64,000 nucleotides of DNA from Paucibacter sp. Y2R2-4 (GTDB lineage: Bacteria; Pseudomonadota; Gammaproteobacteria; Burkholderiales; Burkholderiaceae_C): assembly GCF_025717535.1 (NCBI RefSeq), contig NZ_JAJIRO010000001.1, positions 1,364,001 through 1,428,000 of the forward strand, read 5' to 3'. Positions 24,008-37,533 of this stretch are shown here, one piece after another; position 1 is the stretch's first letter; every line of letters starts with the position of its first letter. The notes under the pieces are model-generated. The model was not told the DNA's origin, ran no database searches, and saw only the letters and a program-made list of their open reading frames with translations. The translations under genes and the position numbers were made by a program.

Positions 24008-24199
24008 TCACCGAGCACCTCGGCCAGACACCAGGGCTGGCGGGAAGTCCTGCGCCAGGGAGGCTTCCAGGCGCACGCGCAGCTCTGCGCTGCGGCTGCG
24101 ATCGGAACTTTTTGCCGCAGCGTCCAGCTTCTTCACCAAGGCCAGAGGGAACTTGGCTACGATGGCTTTGTGCGGGTCGGGCTTTTTGGTGGCTCGCAT
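24008..24199 (-). CDS. Arc-family ribbon-helix-helix regulator (switch, leftward)
   Basis: A 63-residue protein with the RHH core IVAKFPLALVKKLDAAAKSSDRSRSAELRVRL (residues about 13-44). No ribosome-binding site is visible; TAATAC at 24208-24203 lies about seven bases before the ATG, so the message may be leaderless. It is divergent from 24289-24630 and heads the early leftward operon (CII-like, recombinase, replication), the position of a Cro-type gene. Confidence 0.75.
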   Translation of the reverse strand: MRATKKPDPHKAIVAKFPLALVKKLDAAAKSSDRSRSAELRVRLEASLAQDFPPALVSGRGAR

Positions 24200-24288: not shown

Positions 24289-24630
24289 GTGAACACCATT
24301 TCCAAAATCAAGGTGAGCGACATTCCGCCCACCACCTTGCGGCTCCCGCCTGACCTGCGCGACCAATTGCTGCGCGAGGCCACCATCAACGGCCGCTCTT
24401 TGAACCAGGAAATCATGATCCGGCTCAAGCTGAGCACGGACCCTGGCCCGGGTGACCCGGGGGCCCTGGCCATGCAGCAAGAGTTGCGTGATCTACGCAA
24501 CCAAGTGATGCATGGTGTTGAGTCACCTGCGACTCAAAAACTCAGTGATTCAGAGCGGATGCTGCTGGTGCTCTTCGCCACCATGCCACCAGAAAAGCAG
24601 CTCAGCCTTCTGACCCTTTTGCGCCGCTGA
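24289..24630 (+). CDS. Arc-family ribbon-helix-helix repressor (switch, rightward)
   Basis: A 113-residue protein. The N-terminal RHH domain (TTLRLPPDLRDQLLREATINGRSLNQEI, about 15-42) is followed by a C-terminal oligomerisation-like region absent from the smaller Arc proteins here. The start is GTG; TAAAAT (24276-24281) lies seven bases upstream, suggesting a leaderless mRNA as for lambda cI from PRM. It is the only gene on the + strand in this region and has its own terminator, which fits a prophage repressor. Confidence 0.75.
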   Translation: MNTISKIKVSDIPPTTLRLPPDLRDQLLREATINGRSLNQEIMIRLKLSTDPGPGDPGALAMQQELRDLRNQVMHGVESPATQKLSDSERMLLVLFATMPPEKQLSLLTLLRR

Positions 24631-30595: not shown

Positions 30596-31170
30596 CAACG
30601 GCGCTGGAATCGAATGCTCAGCCAGGGCTGGGGCTTGGAGCCAAACTCTTCCACCCGGGCGAAAAACGTGTCACCCGGAAAGCGAGCCTGGTGCTGGGCG
30701 TTGTTGAGGCGCAGTGACTGCGGCGCCCGCTTGTCGCGGCCCTGCAGCTCGCAGCGCATCACGGCCTGCGCGGCCTGGTCGGCGCCGTCACCGGTGCGCA
30801 GCCGCACCTGGTCCATCAGCCCGCTCCAGAGCAGCTCGGGTGTGCCTTGTAGCTGCAGCACCGAGTTCATGGCGCCCAAATAGATCAATACCGGCCGGCG
30901 CCGGTAGGTGTTCACACTGCCTCGGCACAAGGCCAGCAGCGAGGGGTCTTGTACTGCCAGGCCCAAGTCAACAGCGGGGTATTGAAGGCCCTCCGCATCT
31001 TGCAAGCCACTCACGCTCATCAGTCGGCCCGCGCCTTGCCAACTTTGGCCCAAGGCCTCCAAGCTGTGGCTCCAGCTGCACAGGCGCACGGTACCGGTGG
31101 TGAACTGCATCTCCACCAGGTAGACCAAGCCTGCCGTGGGCGCGGCGACTTGCTCGCTGTGGGTGCTCAC
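30595..31170 (-). CDS. Phage tail protein (DUF2163-like)
   Basis: A 191-residue tail-tip protein. A beta-rich start (LVYLVEMQFTTGTVRLCSWSHSLEALGQSW) and an end FSKPQPWLSIRFQRR-like tail resemble the minor tail proteins between tape measure and J. Four-base overlap with its upstream neighbour; the family assignment is by position and pattern. Confidence 0.55.
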   Translation of the reverse strand: MSTHSEQVAAPTAGLVYLVEMQFTTGTVRLCSWSHSLEALGQSWQGAGRLMSVSGLQDAEGLQYPAVDLGLAVQDPSLLALCRGSVNTYRRRPVLIYLGAMNSVLQLQGTPELLWSGLMDQVRLRTGDGADQAAQAVMRCELQGRDKRAPQSLRLNNAQHQARFPGDTFFARVEEFGSKPQPWLSIRFQRR

Positions 31171-31775
31171 GAAAACACCTCTTCCAGCGCAAAGGTCACG
31201 CCAGGAAAGCGCGCCCCTTGCTGCTTCATGGGTGGAACAGGGCCCTTCAAGATGAACAGGGCAGTGGGTTTGAACAGCAGTAGCGGCGTGCCAGGCGGTA
31301 CCGGCGCGCGCAGCGGCGGCTCCACCACCAGGTCGGCGCGCCCATCGGCTGCGCTATTGGCTGTGAGCAGCAGGCGCTTGAGCTCACCGTTCACGCCGAT
31401 CCAGCTGCCCGCCTTGAGCACGCCGGGCACATTAGCCGCCCAGAGATCGGTGTTCAGGGTGTTGCCCGTGGCGGCCGGGGCCGTCAGTCGGGTTTGGGGT
31501 GTGCCGGAGGCCGGGCCCAGCGGGGTCTCGCGCCGCCAGTCCCAGCAGCGCAGGCGGTTCACACTGCCATTCAGCCGACCCAGCAAGGCCTCCCACTCGG
31601 GTACTTCCTCGCGGCGCAGCGGGCCGGTAGTGACCTGCACCATCCAGCGAGGCGCGCCCACTATGTCGATTTGCGGCGAGCCATCAATGCCGCGCTGCAC
31701 TTCTTGCGGTACGTACAGGCCCCACTCCACCTCAGCGGGGCGCAGGGACAGGGGGAAGTCGATGTACTCGGCCAT
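31167..31775 (-). CDS. Phage minor tail protein
   Basis: A 202-residue beta-rich protein (IDFPLSLRPAEVEWGLYVPQEVQRG..., ending PGVTFALEEVFS) upstream of the other tail-tip genes. Tail tip assembly inferred from position; no catalytic motif. Confidence 0.6.
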   Translation of the reverse strand: MAEYIDFPLSLRPAEVEWGLYVPQEVQRGIDGSPQIDIVGAPRWMVQVTTGPLRREEVPEWEALLGRLNGSVNRLRCWDWRRETPLGPASGTPQTRLTAPAATGNTLNTDLWAANVPGVLKAGSWIGVNGELKRLLLTANSAADGRADLVVEPPLRAPVPPGTPLLLFKPTALFILKGPVPPMKQQGARFPGVTFALEEVFS

Positions 31776-31872: not shown

Positions 31873-32232
31873 TCAGTTCATCAGCCGCGCTTGAGCCAAA
31901 GTGCGCAGCACTCCGCAGCCGGGCAGTTCATCCCACTCCACCACGCGCTTCACATCTTCGGCAGAAAACGGGTGTTGTTGCCCATCGTCGTGAAGCGCCT
32001 GCCAGCCCCGCTCGGCGCAATAGTCAGCCACCGCCTGGGCATCGCCCAAGTCAGCAAACAGCGCCAAGATCTGATCCAGCATGGTGCCCGCGTCATCGCC
32101 CGCAACCAGCCGGGCCTTGAGGTCCAGCAGCGCTTCCAGCTCCGCTTGCAAGCGCCGCAGGCCTTCAGCCCGAGCGCGGTACACCCGCTGCACAGCCGCC
32201 AAAGGCTGCGCCAACGGTGGGGCGGGCATCAT
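31873..32232 (-). CDS. Hypothetical helical protein
   Basis: A 119-residue, mainly helical protein with heptad-like segments (VYRARAEGLRRLQAELEALLDLKARLV). It overlaps the next gene by 4 bases and belongs to the group with the BRO-N antirepressor inserted into the tail operon. Unrecognised. Confidence 0.55.
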   Translation of the reverse strand: MMPAPPLAQPLAAVQRVYRARAEGLRRLQAELEALLDLKARLVAGDDAGTMLDQILALFADLGDAQAVADYCAERGWQALHDDGQQHPFSAEDVKRVVEWDELPGCGVLRTLAQARLMN

Positions 32233-32468
32233 GGCTCCACCTCGAGGCCCAGCTGCAGCGCCGCCGCCGTCAAGCCGTCACACGCCAGGTCAAGCCGCGT
32301 ACGCACACCGTCGAGCAAGGCCACGAGTCCACCACCTTCCAGCGTTGCACTCTGCGCGCCTTGCAGCAGGCTCACCAAAAAGGCGACGCCATCGCGCGCG
32401 CTTCGCGCGTCGGACAGGGCCGTGATCATGTCGGTGGCCAAGATGGCTTGATCAAGCGCGGCGCTCAT
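32229..32468 (-). CDS. Hypothetical protein
   Basis: A 79-residue Ala/Leu-rich helical protein (ATDMITALSDARSARDGVAFLVSLLQGAQSA). It overlaps both neighbours by 4 bases and is probably co-translated with the antirepressor. Confidence 0.55.
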   Translation of the reverse strand: MSAALDQAILATDMITALSDARSARDGVAFLVSLLQGAQSATLEGGGLVALLDGVRTRLDLACDGLTAAALQLGLEVEP

Positions 32469-33052
32469 GCTGCTGTACCGGCTGCGCCACCCTCCCCGCC
32501 AACGCCCGGCAAAGGCTCTTGCTGCATGCCTGGGGCCAAGCTGCGCAAGGCGCGGGGCTGGATGCCCAGCAGCCGGCTGACCTGGCGCAGGTTTTCATAC
32601 AACTCTTCAGCGGCGGCGCGCTGGGTGGCGCCGCCCAGCTCGCGCACCAGGCTGCGCCGCTCTTTCAAGAAGGCCAAGCGCTGGGGGTAGGTCATGGTGC
32701 CGCTCTGCTGCGGGGCCTCGCGCCCCTCCAGCACATCCAAGACCCAGCGCCGGAAGGCCGCCGCCCGCTCGGTGCGAGAGAGCATGCCCAAGAGGTGAGC
32801 GCCGCGCAGGCTGAAGATGCGCACCGGCTGGATGCCGCCAGCGGTGGGCAGCTCCAAGACCTGGGTCATGTCGGGAGTAAATTCGTCGGCGTTGGACTGG
32901 TAGACCTGTTGGACGCGTTGGCGACCATTTAAGTACCCCAAGGCGTCCGCAATTTGCGTACCCCTTAGCCACGGAGAGCCGTGCAAGTCAACGATATCAA
33001 ATTCGGTATCTTGGAAGACGAGCGCGGCTGCGCCTGCTGAGTAAGTAGCCAT
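32465..33052 (-). CDS. BRO-N domain antirepressor
   Basis: A 195-residue protein. The BRO-N/Ant N-terminal DNA-binding domain covers about 10-110 (FDIVDLHGSPWLRGTQIADALGYLN..., FSLRGAHLLGMLSRT, AFRRWVLDVLEG), followed by a helical linker and a Gly-rich tail. Such antirepressors inactivate phage repressors and trigger induction. ATG 33052 has GGAG nine bases upstream. That ribosome-binding site is complementary to part of a C4-like RNA encoded just upstream, as in the P1/P7 immI systems. Confidence 0.8.
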   Translation of the reverse strand: MATYSAGAAALVFQDTEFDIVDLHGSPWLRGTQIADALGYLNGRQRVQQVYQSNADEFTPDMTQVLELPTAGGIQPVRIFSLRGAHLLGMLSRTERAAAFRRWVLDVLEGREAPQQSGTMTYPQRLAFLKERRSLVRELGGATQRAAAEELYENLRQVSRLLGIQPRALRSLAPGMQQEPLPGVGGEGGAAGTAA

Positions 33053-33116
33053 TTGTTGCTCCAGATTCGCTATCGAACATGAAGCTGCCACCCCTGCTAA
33101 AGGGCGGCAGCCCAGG

Positions 33117-33225
33117 ACGGGTTAGCAGACCGGGCGAATCGCGGAGCGAGTAACCGGCGAGCCTTGCGGCTCCCCGTCTGGGCCACCATTGATCGTATAG
33201 GGACGAACAAGGTCCAGAAACGGCA
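33117..33225 (-). ncRNA. C4-type antisense RNA (antirepressor control)
   Basis: Read on the - strand, the segment around 33150-33215 matches the conserved body of phage C4 antisense RNAs as I know it from P1-like and enterobacterial elements (the run around CCTATACGATCAATGGTGG, a GAGCC/GGCTC hairpin and CGCCGGTTAC). Its 3' part carries a'-like GCTCCGCGATTCGC (33134-33147), which can pair with the antirepressor ribosome-binding region GCGAATCTGGAGC (33058-33070), and b'-like CTGCTAA (33122-33128), complementary to TTAGCAG at 33094-33100. A second copy of both target-like sequences lies upstream (33253-33280). Ends are approximate. Confidence 0.75.
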
Positions 33226-33341
33226 AAGCCGCATGGTACTGCGGCTTCTGTGCCGCGATTCGCAAAGGGCTGCTAAACCCAACTGCATTTCTGCAGTGCG
33301 ATCACTCTACATCAGGAAAGGCGCAGTGCGCAAGGCCAAAA

Positions 33342-34133
33342 TCAATCCTGGATCATCGTCACACGCCCCTGGGCAAAGTGGATACGCCCTCGGGAATAAA
33401 TCCAAACCTCGCTGGTTTGTCGTTCGGTTTGAGTCCGAATTGAGTCCTTTGGTGGCCCCCACTGCGAGGCCAAAACTTCTTGGGGGGTCATGCCAATTTT
33501 TGGCACCGGCTTAGCCACCAACAGCGCCCTCTCCCGTGCTTTCTCATCGTCGTACTGCTTCCTCTTTGCTGCAGCGTTAGCGTTTGCTTTCGCTGCCTTC
33601 GCTCTTGCCTCTCGCATCTTGATTGCTGGATCAGTTGCGTAGATGTGGCTATTGCTATCAATCAGAAAATTCTCATCTCTACTTCTTTCAAGTTTCCGCT
33701 CAAAGTCATCTTGAGCAAGAAAGCCTATTTGCCCATTTGACAGAGCAACTTTAAGAAAACGATTCTCTTCGAATGCATAGCCAAATCTAGGGTCTACAAC
33801 TATTGCTGTAACCACAAAACTAAGCGGCTCTTTTACTGAAAACATGCGACCCGTACCAAGAGCAATTCTTGGCTCGACCAAAAACTTGAATCCAGGGCTA
33901 AGAGGGTCAGATTTATCCAGCACGGAATGGCGGGAGTCGCCAGGTGCACCCAGGCTCCTTTCTTGCTCAGGACGAATCCAGTACTGCTTTTGGATATAGG
34001 TCTGCCCACGGGCTTCCGCCTGAAGCGCACGCCTTTCTCCTTCGCAATTTGAGTGAGTGCATTCAGGCTCACCGGCGGCCAAACAAATAGCTATGTGACA
34101 GCCAACAAGCAGCGTGAAAAACAACTTTTGCAT
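33342..34133 (-). CDS. Secreted cargo protein with SmpA/OmlA-like C-terminus
   Basis: A 263-residue protein with a signal peptide (KLFFTLLVGCHIAICLAAG). A long central region rich in charged residues contains a helical Ala/Lys/Arg stretch (about 170-205). The C-terminal domain starts GMTPQEVLASQWGPPKDSI and ends in WIYSRGRIHFAQGRVTMI, the pattern of the SmpA/OmlA small periplasmic fold. It is less GC-rich than the phage genes around it and flanked by inverted copies of a motif (33311-33327, 34166-34179). Probably a lysogenic-conversion gene; function unknown. Confidence 0.7.
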   Translation of the reverse strand: MQKLFFTLLVGCHIAICLAAGEPECTHSNCEGERRALQAEARGQTYIQKQYWIRPEQERSLGAPGDSRHSVLDKSDPLSPGFKFLVEPRIALGTGRMFSVKEPLSFVVTAIVVDPRFGYAFEENRFLKVALSNGQIGFLAQDDFERKLERSRDENFLIDSNSHIYATDPAIKMREARAKAAKANANAAAKRKQYDDEKARERALLVAKPVPKIGMTPQEVLASQWGPPKDSIRTQTERQTSEVWIYSRGRIHFAQGRVTMIQD

Positions 34134-34175: not shown

Positions 34176-37154
34176 TCATGCCGTTCCACGCTCCATCTCA
34201 TCCCGCATTTCAGCCTTGGCCTGGCGCACCGCCATGAGGGCCAAACTGGCCACTTGCGCCTGGTCGGTGCGGGCGTCGATGTGGATGGTGACGTGCTGGG
34301 TGATGCTGGGGCGGCTGCTGCCGCCGGCCTTGGCCACCGCTTCGACTGGAGCCAGCGCCCGCATTTGACCCTTGGTGAAAACGCCCTCGCCGCGCTGCAA
34401 GATGGCCGGCACTTCGTCGTGCGCCAGGCCTCCCGTGTGATAGCGGCGAGCGCCTGCCCAGGTGTTGACAGGGAAGCTAGCCGCGCGGCCTTCTCCTGCG
34501 CCCATGATGGCACCGGTGTGGGCCACCGTGGCTGCAGCTTCACCGCCGCCGTTGCTGAAGAGGCTGGCCAACATGCCCGCGAACCCGCCTCCACCACCAC
34601 CGCCACCACTGCCTGAAGATGACATGGTGCTGAGCGCCAAAGCGGCAGAAGTGGCGGCGGAGGTCAGAGAGTCCAGCGCCACAGTGCCGAGGGTCAGGCT
34701 TGTGGCCTGGGCCGCCATACCGGATGTTGCCGCACCCAAAGCCGCTGTGTTGGCGGTAACGGCAGCAGTGCCGGCAGTAACCGCCGCCGTATTGCTGGTG
34801 ACAGCTGCGGCCTCTGCGCTCTTGGCTGCGCTGCCGGCCCCATCACCTAGGGCTTCAGCGGCAGGTTTGGCGATTCCCATCCAGCCGGCCACGGTGTCGC
34901 CGGCCTGCTGCATCATCGGCGCGACCTGCTGCCGATAGGTCAGCTTGGCAAACTCGCCCAGCGCAAAGTCAGTGAGGCTTTCGATATTCACCTTGCCGGT
35001 CTTGATGAACTCGACCCAGCCACTTTCACCGGCGCGCAGCCAGCCGGTTTGGAAGTCGTCGTAGGCCTCGCGCATGAGGCGAGTGTTGTCTTTCCATGCC
35101 TCCAGCATCTGCTGCCATTCAGGCTTGAGGTCTTGCACCATGCGGCGATTGATGAGATCGATGGCATCGGCCTTTCTCTGCTCGGCCTGGGTCATCTCGG
35201 TCTTGATGCCATCGACCGCATCGGGCTGCAAGATCTCGGCTATGGCCAGCCGCGCCTTGAGGCCTTTCGCCTGCTCGGTGTAGTAGCGGTTGAGCTCGGC
35301 AATGTCGAGCTTGGCCCGCTCGGTCGCACGCTTGTAGGGGTCGGCAATCAAGTCCACCGCCGCAGACGCATTGCCATAGCGCAGCTGCTCGCTGAATTGG
35401 CTCAGCGCTTGGCGGCGCTGGTTCAGATCATCAATGAAACGATCTTGCGCAGCAGCGCCGGCACTCTCGGTCGCACGGTCGGCAGCAACTTCGGCTGCAG
35501 CTTGCTGAGCGACCAGACTGCCGCGCTGAGCCTTGAGCTCGATGATCTTGCTTTCTTGCTGGATCTCGACTTCGCCGCGGCGCGCGGCGAGCTCGATGAG
35601 TCGAGCTTGTTGCTGGCTCGCGTCTGCGGCGTTCTCAGGCTTGCGGCGCGCCTCGGCCGAGATCTCGGCATCAATGACAGCCGCGCGGCTCTGGGCCAGG
35701 CGAGCCTCAGCGCTGATCTGCGCATCAACCACCTGGATCTGCGACTGCAGGCCCTGCTGCTCCAGGGTCTTACGGCGCTCAAAGTAGTCCGCCGTGCCTA
35801 CGCTATCCCGATCGCGCAGGCTTTCCAGAGTGGCGCTTTGGCGTTGCTGTAGAGCCTCGCGCTGCCGTGCAGCTGCTTGGCTGACTGCCAGATCTCGATT
35901 GATGATGGCCTCGCGCTGCGTGGCCGCTGCACGGGCTTGTGCCAACTCGATAGCGAGGGCTGCTTCTACGCGAGACTGGTCAAGCTGGCGAAGCGCCTCT
36001 TGAGCCTGGGCTACAGCGCCAGATGCTTCCATGCCTCGTTCTTGAACCCTAATGAGGTCTCTGTTAGCGAGGTCAACGGCTTGCAGTGCCTTTTCGTAGC
36101 GTGATTCTTCCCACATGCCCAGCAAGCCGCCACCGCCTTGGTTGGGTAGAGCGCGGAATCGTTCGATATCACTCTTTGCCTTAGCAAGCCGCTGGCTGAG
36201 GGTGTCTTCTCGGCCGTAGCTAAGCATTTCATCCCACGAACTCTTGGCGGCATCTTTGACGCCAACCCAGGCACGCTCGAGAAGCCCGAGGTTCGATGCC
36301 ACCTTGGCTGTGCGTGTACTCATGGCCTCTGCATAGGCCTTTTGAGCCAAGGCGCCGGCATCAGCCTCCCGGCCGGCGGCCATCAGAGCGCGGATCTCTT
36401 CGTACAGCGCAGCGGTGAGGTAGTTCACCCCGCGATTGAGTCGCAGCGTAGCCTCCAGCGGCGCGCGGCCCAGGTCGGTGAAGCGCTGGGCGGTTTCGCT
36501 CAAGGGTTGGTCCAGCGTGCGCTCCATGCGGATGGCCAGATCTGCAAAGCCCTGCAGATTGCGCTGGGCCACTTCGCCTGTTGAAGCCATCGCGGCCAAG
36601 GCCTGCGCGGCCTTGCCCTGCGTGCCCACGGCCTGGGCAATGCTGCGGGCCATGTCGGCCATTTGCCCTGCGTTGGTGCCGGCTGCGTTGCCGGTCATGA
36701 TGAGCGCTTGGTTGTAGGCCTGGGCCTCATGAGCCCCTTGCTGATGAGCCATGAGCAAGAGCAGCACGCCCGCAGCCGCACCGCCGGCGGCCAAGCGGGC
36801 CGGGCCGAGTGCTGCCGTGATCTCGCGGAACATGGGCCCCACGCCGCCAAAGCTGTCTTTGATTTGGCCGCCCTGCTGGATGGCGATCAGCCAGGCCGGT
36901 TGTCCGCTGGCCAAGCTGGTGACCACATCGGTGATCTGCGCCGGCAGCAAGCGCCAGGCGGCTTGCACTTCTTTGGCGCTCTTGCCCATCTGGCCCATGG
37001 CGGCAGTGGTGCCACCCATAGGTTTGCCTGCGGCTTCGACCTTCTTGCCGTAGTCCTCCACCGCCTGGCCGGCCAAGGCCACGCCAGCGGTGGTTTCAGG
37101 CACGCCCAAGGCGCTGAGGCGGATGCCCAGTTCTTCAATGTTGCTGCTGCTCAT
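34176..37154 (-). CDS. Tail tape measure protein (lambda gpH-like)
   Basis: A 992-residue protein that sets tail length and spans the tail tube. The N-terminal region has the lambda-type tape measure domain (AAWRLLPAQITDVVTSLASG, GGQIKDSFGGVGPMF), the centre is long alpha-helical coiled coil, followed by an Ala/Thr repeat (TAAVTAGTAAVTANTAALG) and a Gly-rich end. ATG 37154 has TGGAGG upstream. Its length predicts a tail of about 150 nm by the usual 1.5 A per residue rule. It overlaps the tail chaperone T frame by 20 bases. Confidence 0.88.
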   Translation of the reverse strand: MSSSNIEELGIRLSALGVPETTAGVALAGQAVEDYGKKVEAAGKPMGGTTAAMGQMGKSAKEVQAAWRLLPAQITDVVTSLASGQPAWLIAIQQGGQIKDSFGGVGPMFREITAALGPARLAAGGAAAGVLLLLMAHQQGAHEAQAYNQALIMTGNAAGTNAGQMADMARSIAQAVGTQGKAAQALAAMASTGEVAQRNLQGFADLAIRMERTLDQPLSETAQRFTDLGRAPLEATLRLNRGVNYLTAALYEEIRALMAAGREADAGALAQKAYAEAMSTRTAKVASNLGLLERAWVGVKDAAKSSWDEMLSYGREDTLSQRLAKAKSDIERFRALPNQGGGGLLGMWEESRYEKALQAVDLANRDLIRVQERGMEASGAVAQAQEALRQLDQSRVEAALAIELAQARAAATQREAIINRDLAVSQAAARQREALQQRQSATLESLRDRDSVGTADYFERRKTLEQQGLQSQIQVVDAQISAEARLAQSRAAVIDAEISAEARRKPENAADASQQQARLIELAARRGEVEIQQESKIIELKAQRGSLVAQQAAAEVAADRATESAGAAAQDRFIDDLNQRRQALSQFSEQLRYGNASAAVDLIADPYKRATERAKLDIAELNRYYTEQAKGLKARLAIAEILQPDAVDGIKTEMTQAEQRKADAIDLINRRMVQDLKPEWQQMLEAWKDNTRLMREAYDDFQTGWLRAGESGWVEFIKTGKVNIESLTDFALGEFAKLTYRQQVAPMMQQAGDTVAGWMGIAKPAAEALGDGAGSAAKSAEAAAVTSNTAAVTAGTAAVTANTAALGAATSGMAAQATSLTLGTVALDSLTSAATSAALALSTMSSSGSGGGGGGGGFAGMLASLFSNGGGEAAATVAHTGAIMGAGEGRAASFPVNTWAGARRYHTGGLAHDEVPAILQRGEGVFTKGQMRALAPVEAVAKAGGSSRPSITQHVTIHIDARTDQAQVASLALMAVRQAKAEMRDEMERGTA

Positions 37155-37533
37155 CCCAGGCCTCCAGGGCTGCGGTTTCCATTTCCTGCAAATGCTCAAA
37201 CAGGCGGCGCCTGCGTTTCATTTGGCCCAAGCGCATGACTGCCTCGACGGCGTCATAGCGCAACCCTTGCAGCGTGCCGCAGGGCTTGAAGCGCCATTGG
37301 GTTTGCAGGCGCAAGAAGAGCTGCAGCACGGTCCAGTTTTCGGGCCAGATCTCCAGAGGGCCGGTACTAGGCCCAAGGTCTTGAGCGTCTGAGTCTTCGG
37401 GCTCTTCGCCGTCTACCTCTTGGGCCGCCAGCCAGGCCTCGATGGCTTGTGGATTCGCGCCCAGCTGGGCCAGCTCTTGTGGCCGCAGGTCTTCGGCGGC
37501 CGGGGCTTGCTGCCGGCCGCGCTGCTCGGCCAC
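37135..37533 (-). CDS. Tail assembly chaperone T-type extension (DUF1799)
   Basis: A 132-codon frame of the DUF1799 type (WPENWTVLQLFLRLQTQWRF...GLRYDAVEAVMRLG). Read alone it could start at GTG 37533, but it lies in the -1 frame of the upstream chaperone and continues without a stop from the slippery site, so it is probably made mainly as the C-terminal part of a G-T fusion of about 266 residues (37135-37934). In lambda the equivalent gpGT recruits the tape measure protein to the tail tube. Confidence 0.75.
   Translation of the reverse strand: MAEQRGRQQAPAAEDLRPQELAQLGANPQAIEAWLAAQEVDGEEPEDSDAQDLGPSTGPLEIWPENWTVLQLFLRLQTQWRFKPCGTLQGLRYDAVEAVMRLGQMKRRRRLFEHLQEMETAALEAWDEQQQH

Follow-up and report, generated by a model that had tools for sequence, protein, structure and literature searches.

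An antisense RNA switch beside prophage tail genes that probably keeps a Bro-N antirepressor gene silent

The window analysed here is a stretch of 64,000 nucleotides from Paucibacter sp. Y2R2-4 (contig NZ_JAJIRO010000001.1, positions 1,364,001 to 1,428,000), in which a C4 antisense RNA and a Bro-N antirepressor gene form a compact cassette. The cassette lies between a tape measure gene (34176-37199, minus strand, Pfam TMP_2) and a distal tail gene on its other flank (31167-31775, minus strand, PHROG 1302); the placement among tail genes claimed by the original prediction is thus found, with all these elements on the minus strand. A 263-aa ORF (33342-34133, minus strand), with a weak match to PHROG 11546 at its C-terminus, separates the tape measure gene from the cassette. 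The elements of the cassette, from 5' to 3', are the following.

33304-33309, minus strand: -10-like hexamer TAGAGT, with TACACT and similar hexamers there in relatives (alignment with relatives)
33222-33297, minus strand: IsrK/a1b1-like leader stretch, whose end bears a hairpin and a poor U-tract (weak isrK match)
33270-33276, minus strand: a1, copy of target a on the 5' side of C4, TTAGCAG (position as in P1)
33253-33263, minus strand: b1, copy of target b on the 5' side of C4, GCGAATCGCGG (11 of 11 matched)
33100-33193, minus strand: C4 antisense RNA, Rfam RF01695 (covariance match and predicted fold)
33134-33144, minus strand: b' segment of C4, CCGCGATTCGC (complementarity)
33122-33128, minus strand: a' segment of C4, core CTGCTAA (complementarity)
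33094-33100, minus strand: a2 target, TTAGCAG (complementarity to a')
33064-33070, minus strand: b2 target, GCGAATC, adjoining the Shine-Dalgarno sequence (complementarity to b')
33059-33062, minus strand: Shine-Dalgarno sequence GGAG (read from the sequence)
32465-33052, minus strand: Bro-N antirepressor, 195 aa (Pfam Bro-N, PHROG 5060)
32229-32468, minus strand: 79-aa ORF, ATGA overlap with the end of the antirepressor (homologues first after C4 elsewhere)
31873-32232, minus strand: 119-aa ORF (homologue after a 79-aa homologue behind C4 in genome G036)

The C4-type RNA had been recognised from its conserved core, and the covariance search agrees: cmscan matches RF01695 with 62.1 bits against a gathering threshold of 45 (E 1.3e-9 over the whole window), and the isolated RNA takes a C4-shaped predicted fold (-48.3 kcal/mol, z -3.4). 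According to the available portion of PMC5320573, RNase P processes C4 into an RNA of about 77 nt, and the RNA of the window may be processed likewise. A 63-aa ORF (33097-33288, minus strand) spans a1, b1 and C4 and has its stop at the C4 end; it is reminiscent of orf45 in Gifsy-1, a resemblance that may be due to chance.

The antirepressor identity of the protein behind C4 was also correctly foreseen, since it matches Pfam Bro-N (E 3.5e-8, 34.4 bits, cut-off 25.6) and PHROG 5060, 'anti-repressor Ant' (E 4.3e-47). Its longest frame begins at a GTG at 33091, and its likely start is the ATG at 33052, which is preceded by GGAG and lies 47 nt 3' of C4; it is the first ORF after C4 that bears a Shine-Dalgarno sequence, with no icd-like ORF in between. 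Two further ORFs follow it. In G036, G141, G262 and G022, a homologue of the 79-aa ORF comes first behind C4, and a homologue of the 119-aa ORF is found behind C4 in one locus, that of G036, after the 79-aa homologue. As these homologues stand directly behind C4 in relatives, both ORFs are probably part of the cassette, as its second and third genes.

Two segments of C4, a' and b', are complementary to sites on both of its sides. Downstream, they match a2 and b2 with seven plus seven exact bases, in order, and b2 is one base away from the GGAG; upstream, a1 is matched over seven bases and b1 over 11. When success was defined as both sites in order, each at least as long as observed, the downstream pair was equalled by 1 of 2000 dinucleotide shuffles and the upstream pair by 0 of 2000. 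The complementarity predicted at the antirepressor ribosome-binding site is therefore present as seven plus seven exact bases, but the mismatched arm of 13 bases described with it is the upstream copy. Similarly, the coordinates given for a duplicate of the targets (33253-33280) are right, but the duplicate is not specific to this locus, being the a1/b1 pair as annotated in P1. A large inverted repeat peculiar to the locus was rejected on the same grounds: the repeat is a1/b1 against C4, in the layout of P1, and the cassette thus belongs to an already known kind.

In the P1 record (NC_005856) the order is a1, b1, c4, a2, b2 and icd, and our own comparison finds the same four sites a1, b1, a2 and b2 in P1 and N15. 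The immI operon of P1 (c4-icd-ant) shares with the window the order promoter, a1, b1, C4, a2, b2 and ORF, at similar spacing, with the ORF some 50 nt behind C4; it differs in having icd between C4 and ant, whereas in the window Bro-N follows C4 directly, near tail genes. The name 'c4-a1b1' appears in a table of Weinberg et al. 2010, in the accessible part of that paper (PMC2864571), and Rfam treats the upstream pair as a family of its own, c4-a1b1 (RF03163). Against this family the leader of the window scores 17.2 bits (cut-off 46.7), and against isrK (RF01394) 25 bits (cut-off 50); as both scores are below the cut-offs, the leader is filed under neither family, and despite these scores its a1 and b1 sites are in the right places.

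The remaining signals of the leader are clearer across loci than in the window, where a consensus scan of the stretch gave no promoter and the terminator-like hairpin between a1 and C4 is marginal. The 18 nt just 5' of the hexamer TAGAGT are identical in the window and G036. In a set of 71 C4 loci, obtained by thinning at 80% identity, 55 have a -10-like hexamer some 26-50 nt 5' of a1; two more distant upstream stretches gave 7 and 6 such loci, and the reverse strand gave 6. By the original prediction, late transcription would also produce the antirepressor; most relatives, however, carry this hexamer of their own, and the window stretch shows no promoter in the consensus scan. A terminator-like hairpin between a1 and C4 is present in 46 of 68 loci and in 82 of 680 plain shuffles. 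A possible repressor operator upstream of a1 was considered and not retained; the repeat there occurs once in the window, and its shorter pattern is at chance level.

Further evidence comes from the comparison of C4 loci in 399 genomes of the bacterial family. C4 was found in at least 48 of them, with at least 83 matches, 81 of which are above the cut-off; these counts are lower bounds, as ten candidates per genome were scored, and the same search found no C4 in 14 control genomes. Target sites were scored in 81 of the 83 loci (the window and 82 others with their flanks), two unparsed loci being left out. With each site considered singly, exact matches of at least six bases between a C4 and its own flanks were found for a in 93% of loci upstream and 90% downstream, and for b in 89% upstream and 85% downstream; when flanks were swapped, the values were 26, 23, 26 and 17%, respectively. 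With at least seven bases, the values are 90, 89, 69 and 68% in the same order, against 5-6% for swapped flanks. All four sites reach six bases in 60 of the 81 loci with their own flanks and in 12 of 810 combinations with swapped partners; the loci of these comparisons and of the leader swaps below were unthinned for relatedness, and the swap control keeps shared ancestry. As the a and b sequences differ among loci and the matches are kept, the three places change together. For example, the cassette of G036 agrees with that of the window at 196 of 259 aligned positions; its a and b sequences differ from those of the window at all three places, yet they are equally matched internally.

Predicted folds point in the same direction. 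In the window, leader, C4 and start region together reach -124.7 kcal/mol (z -5.6), and the predicted fold of this long RNA pairs a1 and b1 with a' and b' and is not C4-shaped. The 68 loci with both a1 and b1 were folded as leader plus C4: the minimum free energy structure holds at least ten leader:C4 pairs in 56 of 68 with the own leader, against 38 of 408 (single folds) with swapped leaders. With downstream bases added, own leaders form at least ten pairs in 49 of 68 loci, the mean of the swapped leaders reaches ten in 5 of 68, and the energy gain is above the swap mean in 55 of 68, all of these being equilibrium predictions. A separate comparison concerned pairing of the nucleotides just 5' of C4 with the main stem of C4, at its 5' strand. 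A locus's own leader binds this strand better than distant leaders do (for 52 distinct strands, the mean rank on a scale from 0 to 1 is 0.28, with 29 in the best quarter and 2 in the worst). A first, weak control gave a better energy in 58 of 87 cases and a worse one in 19, with no difference in pair number. Pairing between the nucleotides before C4 and this strand is therefore offered as a suggestion only, from a test that still contains shared ancestry.

A function of the leader is suggested by the isrK locus of Gifsy-1 (NC_010392), where we found a match to isrK (79.3 bits), an overlapping match to c4-a1b1 (48.1 bits) and then C4 (69 bits). If nt 1 is taken as the first base of the isrK match, the published IsrK mutations G28A and G31A fall in a1 (TTGGCGT, nt 26-32), and the mutations C159U and C162U fall in a' of the Gifsy-1 C4. 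Moreover, orf45 (nt 107, 45 aa) overlaps this C4, and anrP starts 54 nt 3' of it, preceded by a2 and b2. In the sections of PMC4825925 that are accessible, translation of anrP amounts to 4 units in the wild type, 93 and 218 in the a1 mutants, 484 and 926 in the a' mutants, and 224 and 327 in double mutants of a1 and a' in which pairing is restored; IsrK supplied in trans raises a wild-type anrP fusion 114- to 171-fold. The same sections describe orf45 as conserved in nucleotides and variable in amino acids, which is what is expected if it overlaps C4, and liken IsrK to the SeqA/CI RNA of P4. The double mutants remain far above the wild type, which fits the loss of a':a2 pairing, a pairing unmentioned in those sections. 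Mutations in a1 alone raise anrP, which would not be expected if a1/b1 acted purely as a decoy; their effect suggests that leader:C4 pairing contributes to silencing in cis in Gifsy-1.

From these positions we infer that IsrK is the a1/b1 RNA and STnc1160 its C4. Six C4-related terms, P1 and immI included, are absent from the text of PMC4825925; as far as the accessible parts go, a review (PMC12197685) has IsrK and c4 as separate entries, and a table in a Xylella paper has C4 and isrK no more than 50 bases apart, with the link undrawn. We did not meet the equation of IsrK with the a1/b1 RNA in the accessible portions of the literature on STnc1160 and on isrK with C4 antisense. Gifsy-1 and the window have in common an a1b1 leader (IsrK in Gifsy-1), C4 and an antirepressor or antirepressor-like gene shortly behind it, 54 nt after C4 in Gifsy-1. 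Only Gifsy-1 has a clear terminator after IsrK and an orf45 overlapping C4 and coupled to anrP, and its cassette adjoins an antiterminator gene, whereas that of the window lies in a tail operon. The Rfam isrK and c4-a1b1 matches overlap in Gifsy-1, and isrK is without a clan in the scan outputs; isrK and C4 follow each other in N15 and Gifsy-1, and also in Vibrio phage 1F53_PE003 (L040, 5721-5943), both above cut-off, before a Bro-N relative.

Relatives of the Bro-N protein place the cassette in a wider context. C4 accompanies two of the nine relatives scanned with Rfam, those of Haemophilus phage Aaphi23 (L038; 48% identity over 60% of the query) and 1F53_PE003 (42% over 74%), in both cases above cut-off and about 50 nt 5' of the gene. 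At the gathering threshold it was not found beside L031-L035, L037 and L039 (L036 was outside the scan), nor at a low threshold beside L031, L032, L034 and L037; the relatives in G117 and G213 gave no C4 either. The a and b sequences of Aaphi23 and 1F53_PE003 differ from those of the window; in Aaphi23 a2 was found, and no a1 of six bases was found within 120 nt. In Acinetobacter phage A1626.2 (L037, 5989-7674), which is among the phages without a C4 match, the Bro-N gene lies shortly 5' of the tape measure gene.

The original prediction contrasted the setting among late tail genes with the immI-type control known in P1/P7; the setting is real, and it recurs, since the C4/Bro-N cassette of 1F53_PE003 is downstream of a tape measure gene, from which a single reverse-strand gene separates it. 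That phage differs in its record of Mu- and P2-like tail genes (sheath, tube), the window having the TMP_2 tail of a siphophage. Within the 399 genomes, the closest relative of the window's Bro-N (54%) is that of G117 (L149, 2957-9661). It is flanked by genes for a tail protein (PHROG 290) and a tape measure (PHROG 1716), and two Arc-like genes take the place that C4 has in the window; the name 'tail chaperone' for L149:4289-4624 was withdrawn, as that ORF has no PHROG match. In Salmonella phage SPN3UB, similarly, an antirepressor with a known antisense RNA stands among tail genes, between the major tail protein and the tape measure, in a module that also holds Arc-like genes; its RNA belongs to a different family (sar, RF00262) and not to C4. 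This sar RNA adjoins the antirepressor (L035, 7901-7969), a second antisense device in such a place. The placements in G117, SPN3UB, 1F53_PE003 and the window indicate that the place recurs and that the silencing device varies. As a general rule, that C4 cassettes sit in tail operons was rejected: at least 3 of 83 C4 loci (the window, G177 and G046) have a same-strand TMP_2 gene no more than 8 kb away, a lower bound because tape measures belong to several families, of which TMP_2 is one, and contigs are often short. The cassette of G177 (L103, 7642-9886) is likewise behind a tape measure gene; besides a DUF5131 protein (270 bits), its cargo comprises a short ORF and an ORF without a Pfam match, with no obvious antirepressor.

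Divergent Arc-like pairs adjoin the antirepressors of G117 and SPN3UB. The window has two divergent ORFs of the ribbon-helix-helix type beyond the tail fibre gene, one Arc-like (24289-24630, plus strand; Pfam Arc 29.3 bits, cut-off 20.4) and one matching Pfam TraY (24008-24199, minus strand; 25.3 bits, cut-off 21.3), for which the label 'Arc-like' was dropped.

We consider it quite likely that the locus as a whole is a C4 antisense cassette of a temperate siphophage, set in its tail operon. In our best model, C4 would silence Bro-N, and a1/b1 would be a second RNA element acting on C4. The a1/b1 leader and then C4 would be transcribed ahead of the Bro-N gene; a' and b' would pair with a2 and b2 beside the Shine-Dalgarno sequence, so that translation of Bro-N would be blocked and the prophage would stay repressed. 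In the primary transcript, a1 and b1 may pair with a' and b' instead, giving a second fold in competition with that of C4, and a short a1/b1 RNA could also target C4 in trans, in the way that IsrK of Gifsy-1 acts on its own mRNA. Should the action of C4 fail, the Bro-N protein would be made and would presumably antagonise a repressor.

Other explanations account for parts of these data. The leader pair might have no function of its own, being a duplicate left by the formation of the cassette or a mere lengthening of the leader, and the P1 record indeed names a1 and b1 only as 'putative' target sites; we regard this as improbable, as the matches to a' and b' are kept while the sequences change among loci, and as the IsrK experiments in Gifsy-1, in the accessible sections of PMC4825925, speak for an active leader. 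It is also unlikely, if somewhat easier to entertain, that the RNA mainly controls the 79- and 119-aa genes and that Bro-N is a later insertion carried along: this would explain why a 79-aa homologue comes first after C4 in four loci, followed by a 119-aa homologue in G036, but in the window b2 adjoins the Shine-Dalgarno sequence of Bro-N, and the overlap of the 79-aa ORF with the Bro-N stop implies that both would share control.

Very improbable, in our judgement, is a decaying relic in which C4 control of Bro-N has been lost and the gene is simply co-transcribed with the tail genes. The promoter and terminator matches in the window are weak, as such a relic would have them, and a comparison of the 1473-base cassette with the 399 genomes gave as best other match, among the matches listed, query bases 324-636 in G117. 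Against decay, the C4 pairs, a1/b1, a2/b2, Shine-Dalgarno sequence and ORF are all intact and mutually matched, and G036 has the same backbone with a different, equally matched set of sites.

Taken alone, the cassette would be one more probable C4-controlled antirepressor; what makes it interesting is the role of a1/b1. Comparison of the loci makes the purpose of this pair, 'putative' in P1, directly testable, and it joins the stories of the P1 C4 and the Gifsy-1 IsrK. A broader reading, which we put forward tentatively and at slightly less than even chances, is that C4 cassettes are portable two-RNA switches: the a1/b1 leader would be a general partner of C4, IsrK and STnc1160 such a pair, and competing leader and C4 folds would set the state, with specificity changing in a concerted manner, late operons among the sites of insertion, and antirepressors as well as other genes as cargo. 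In such switches the leader would often end at its own terminator, and the concerted change of three places would make each cassette an immunity type of its own.

The cargo in other loci is varied. A first ORF after C4 was called in 73 loci, the other 10 of the 83 being outside the Pfam and PHROG tallies. With Pfam (E 0.001) these ORFs match Bro-N (4), pRha (3), AntA (3), P22_AR_N (2), KilA-N (1) and HTH_36 (4), families that may overlap within one protein; the Pfam counts total 26, so that at least 47 of the 73 first ORFs are without a Pfam match, in a set obtained by simple ORF calling, which picks shadow ORFs in GC-rich DNA. Of the 73 first ORFs, 11 have a match to PHROG 245, 'anti-repressor Ant'. 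One genome, G038, holds at least ten C4 copies (L051, L062, L066, L070, L071, L100, L101, L105, L109 and L113); directly behind C4 in L105 and L109 is an HTH_36 protein that resembles replication initiators in the PHROG tally, and C4 may control replication genes there.
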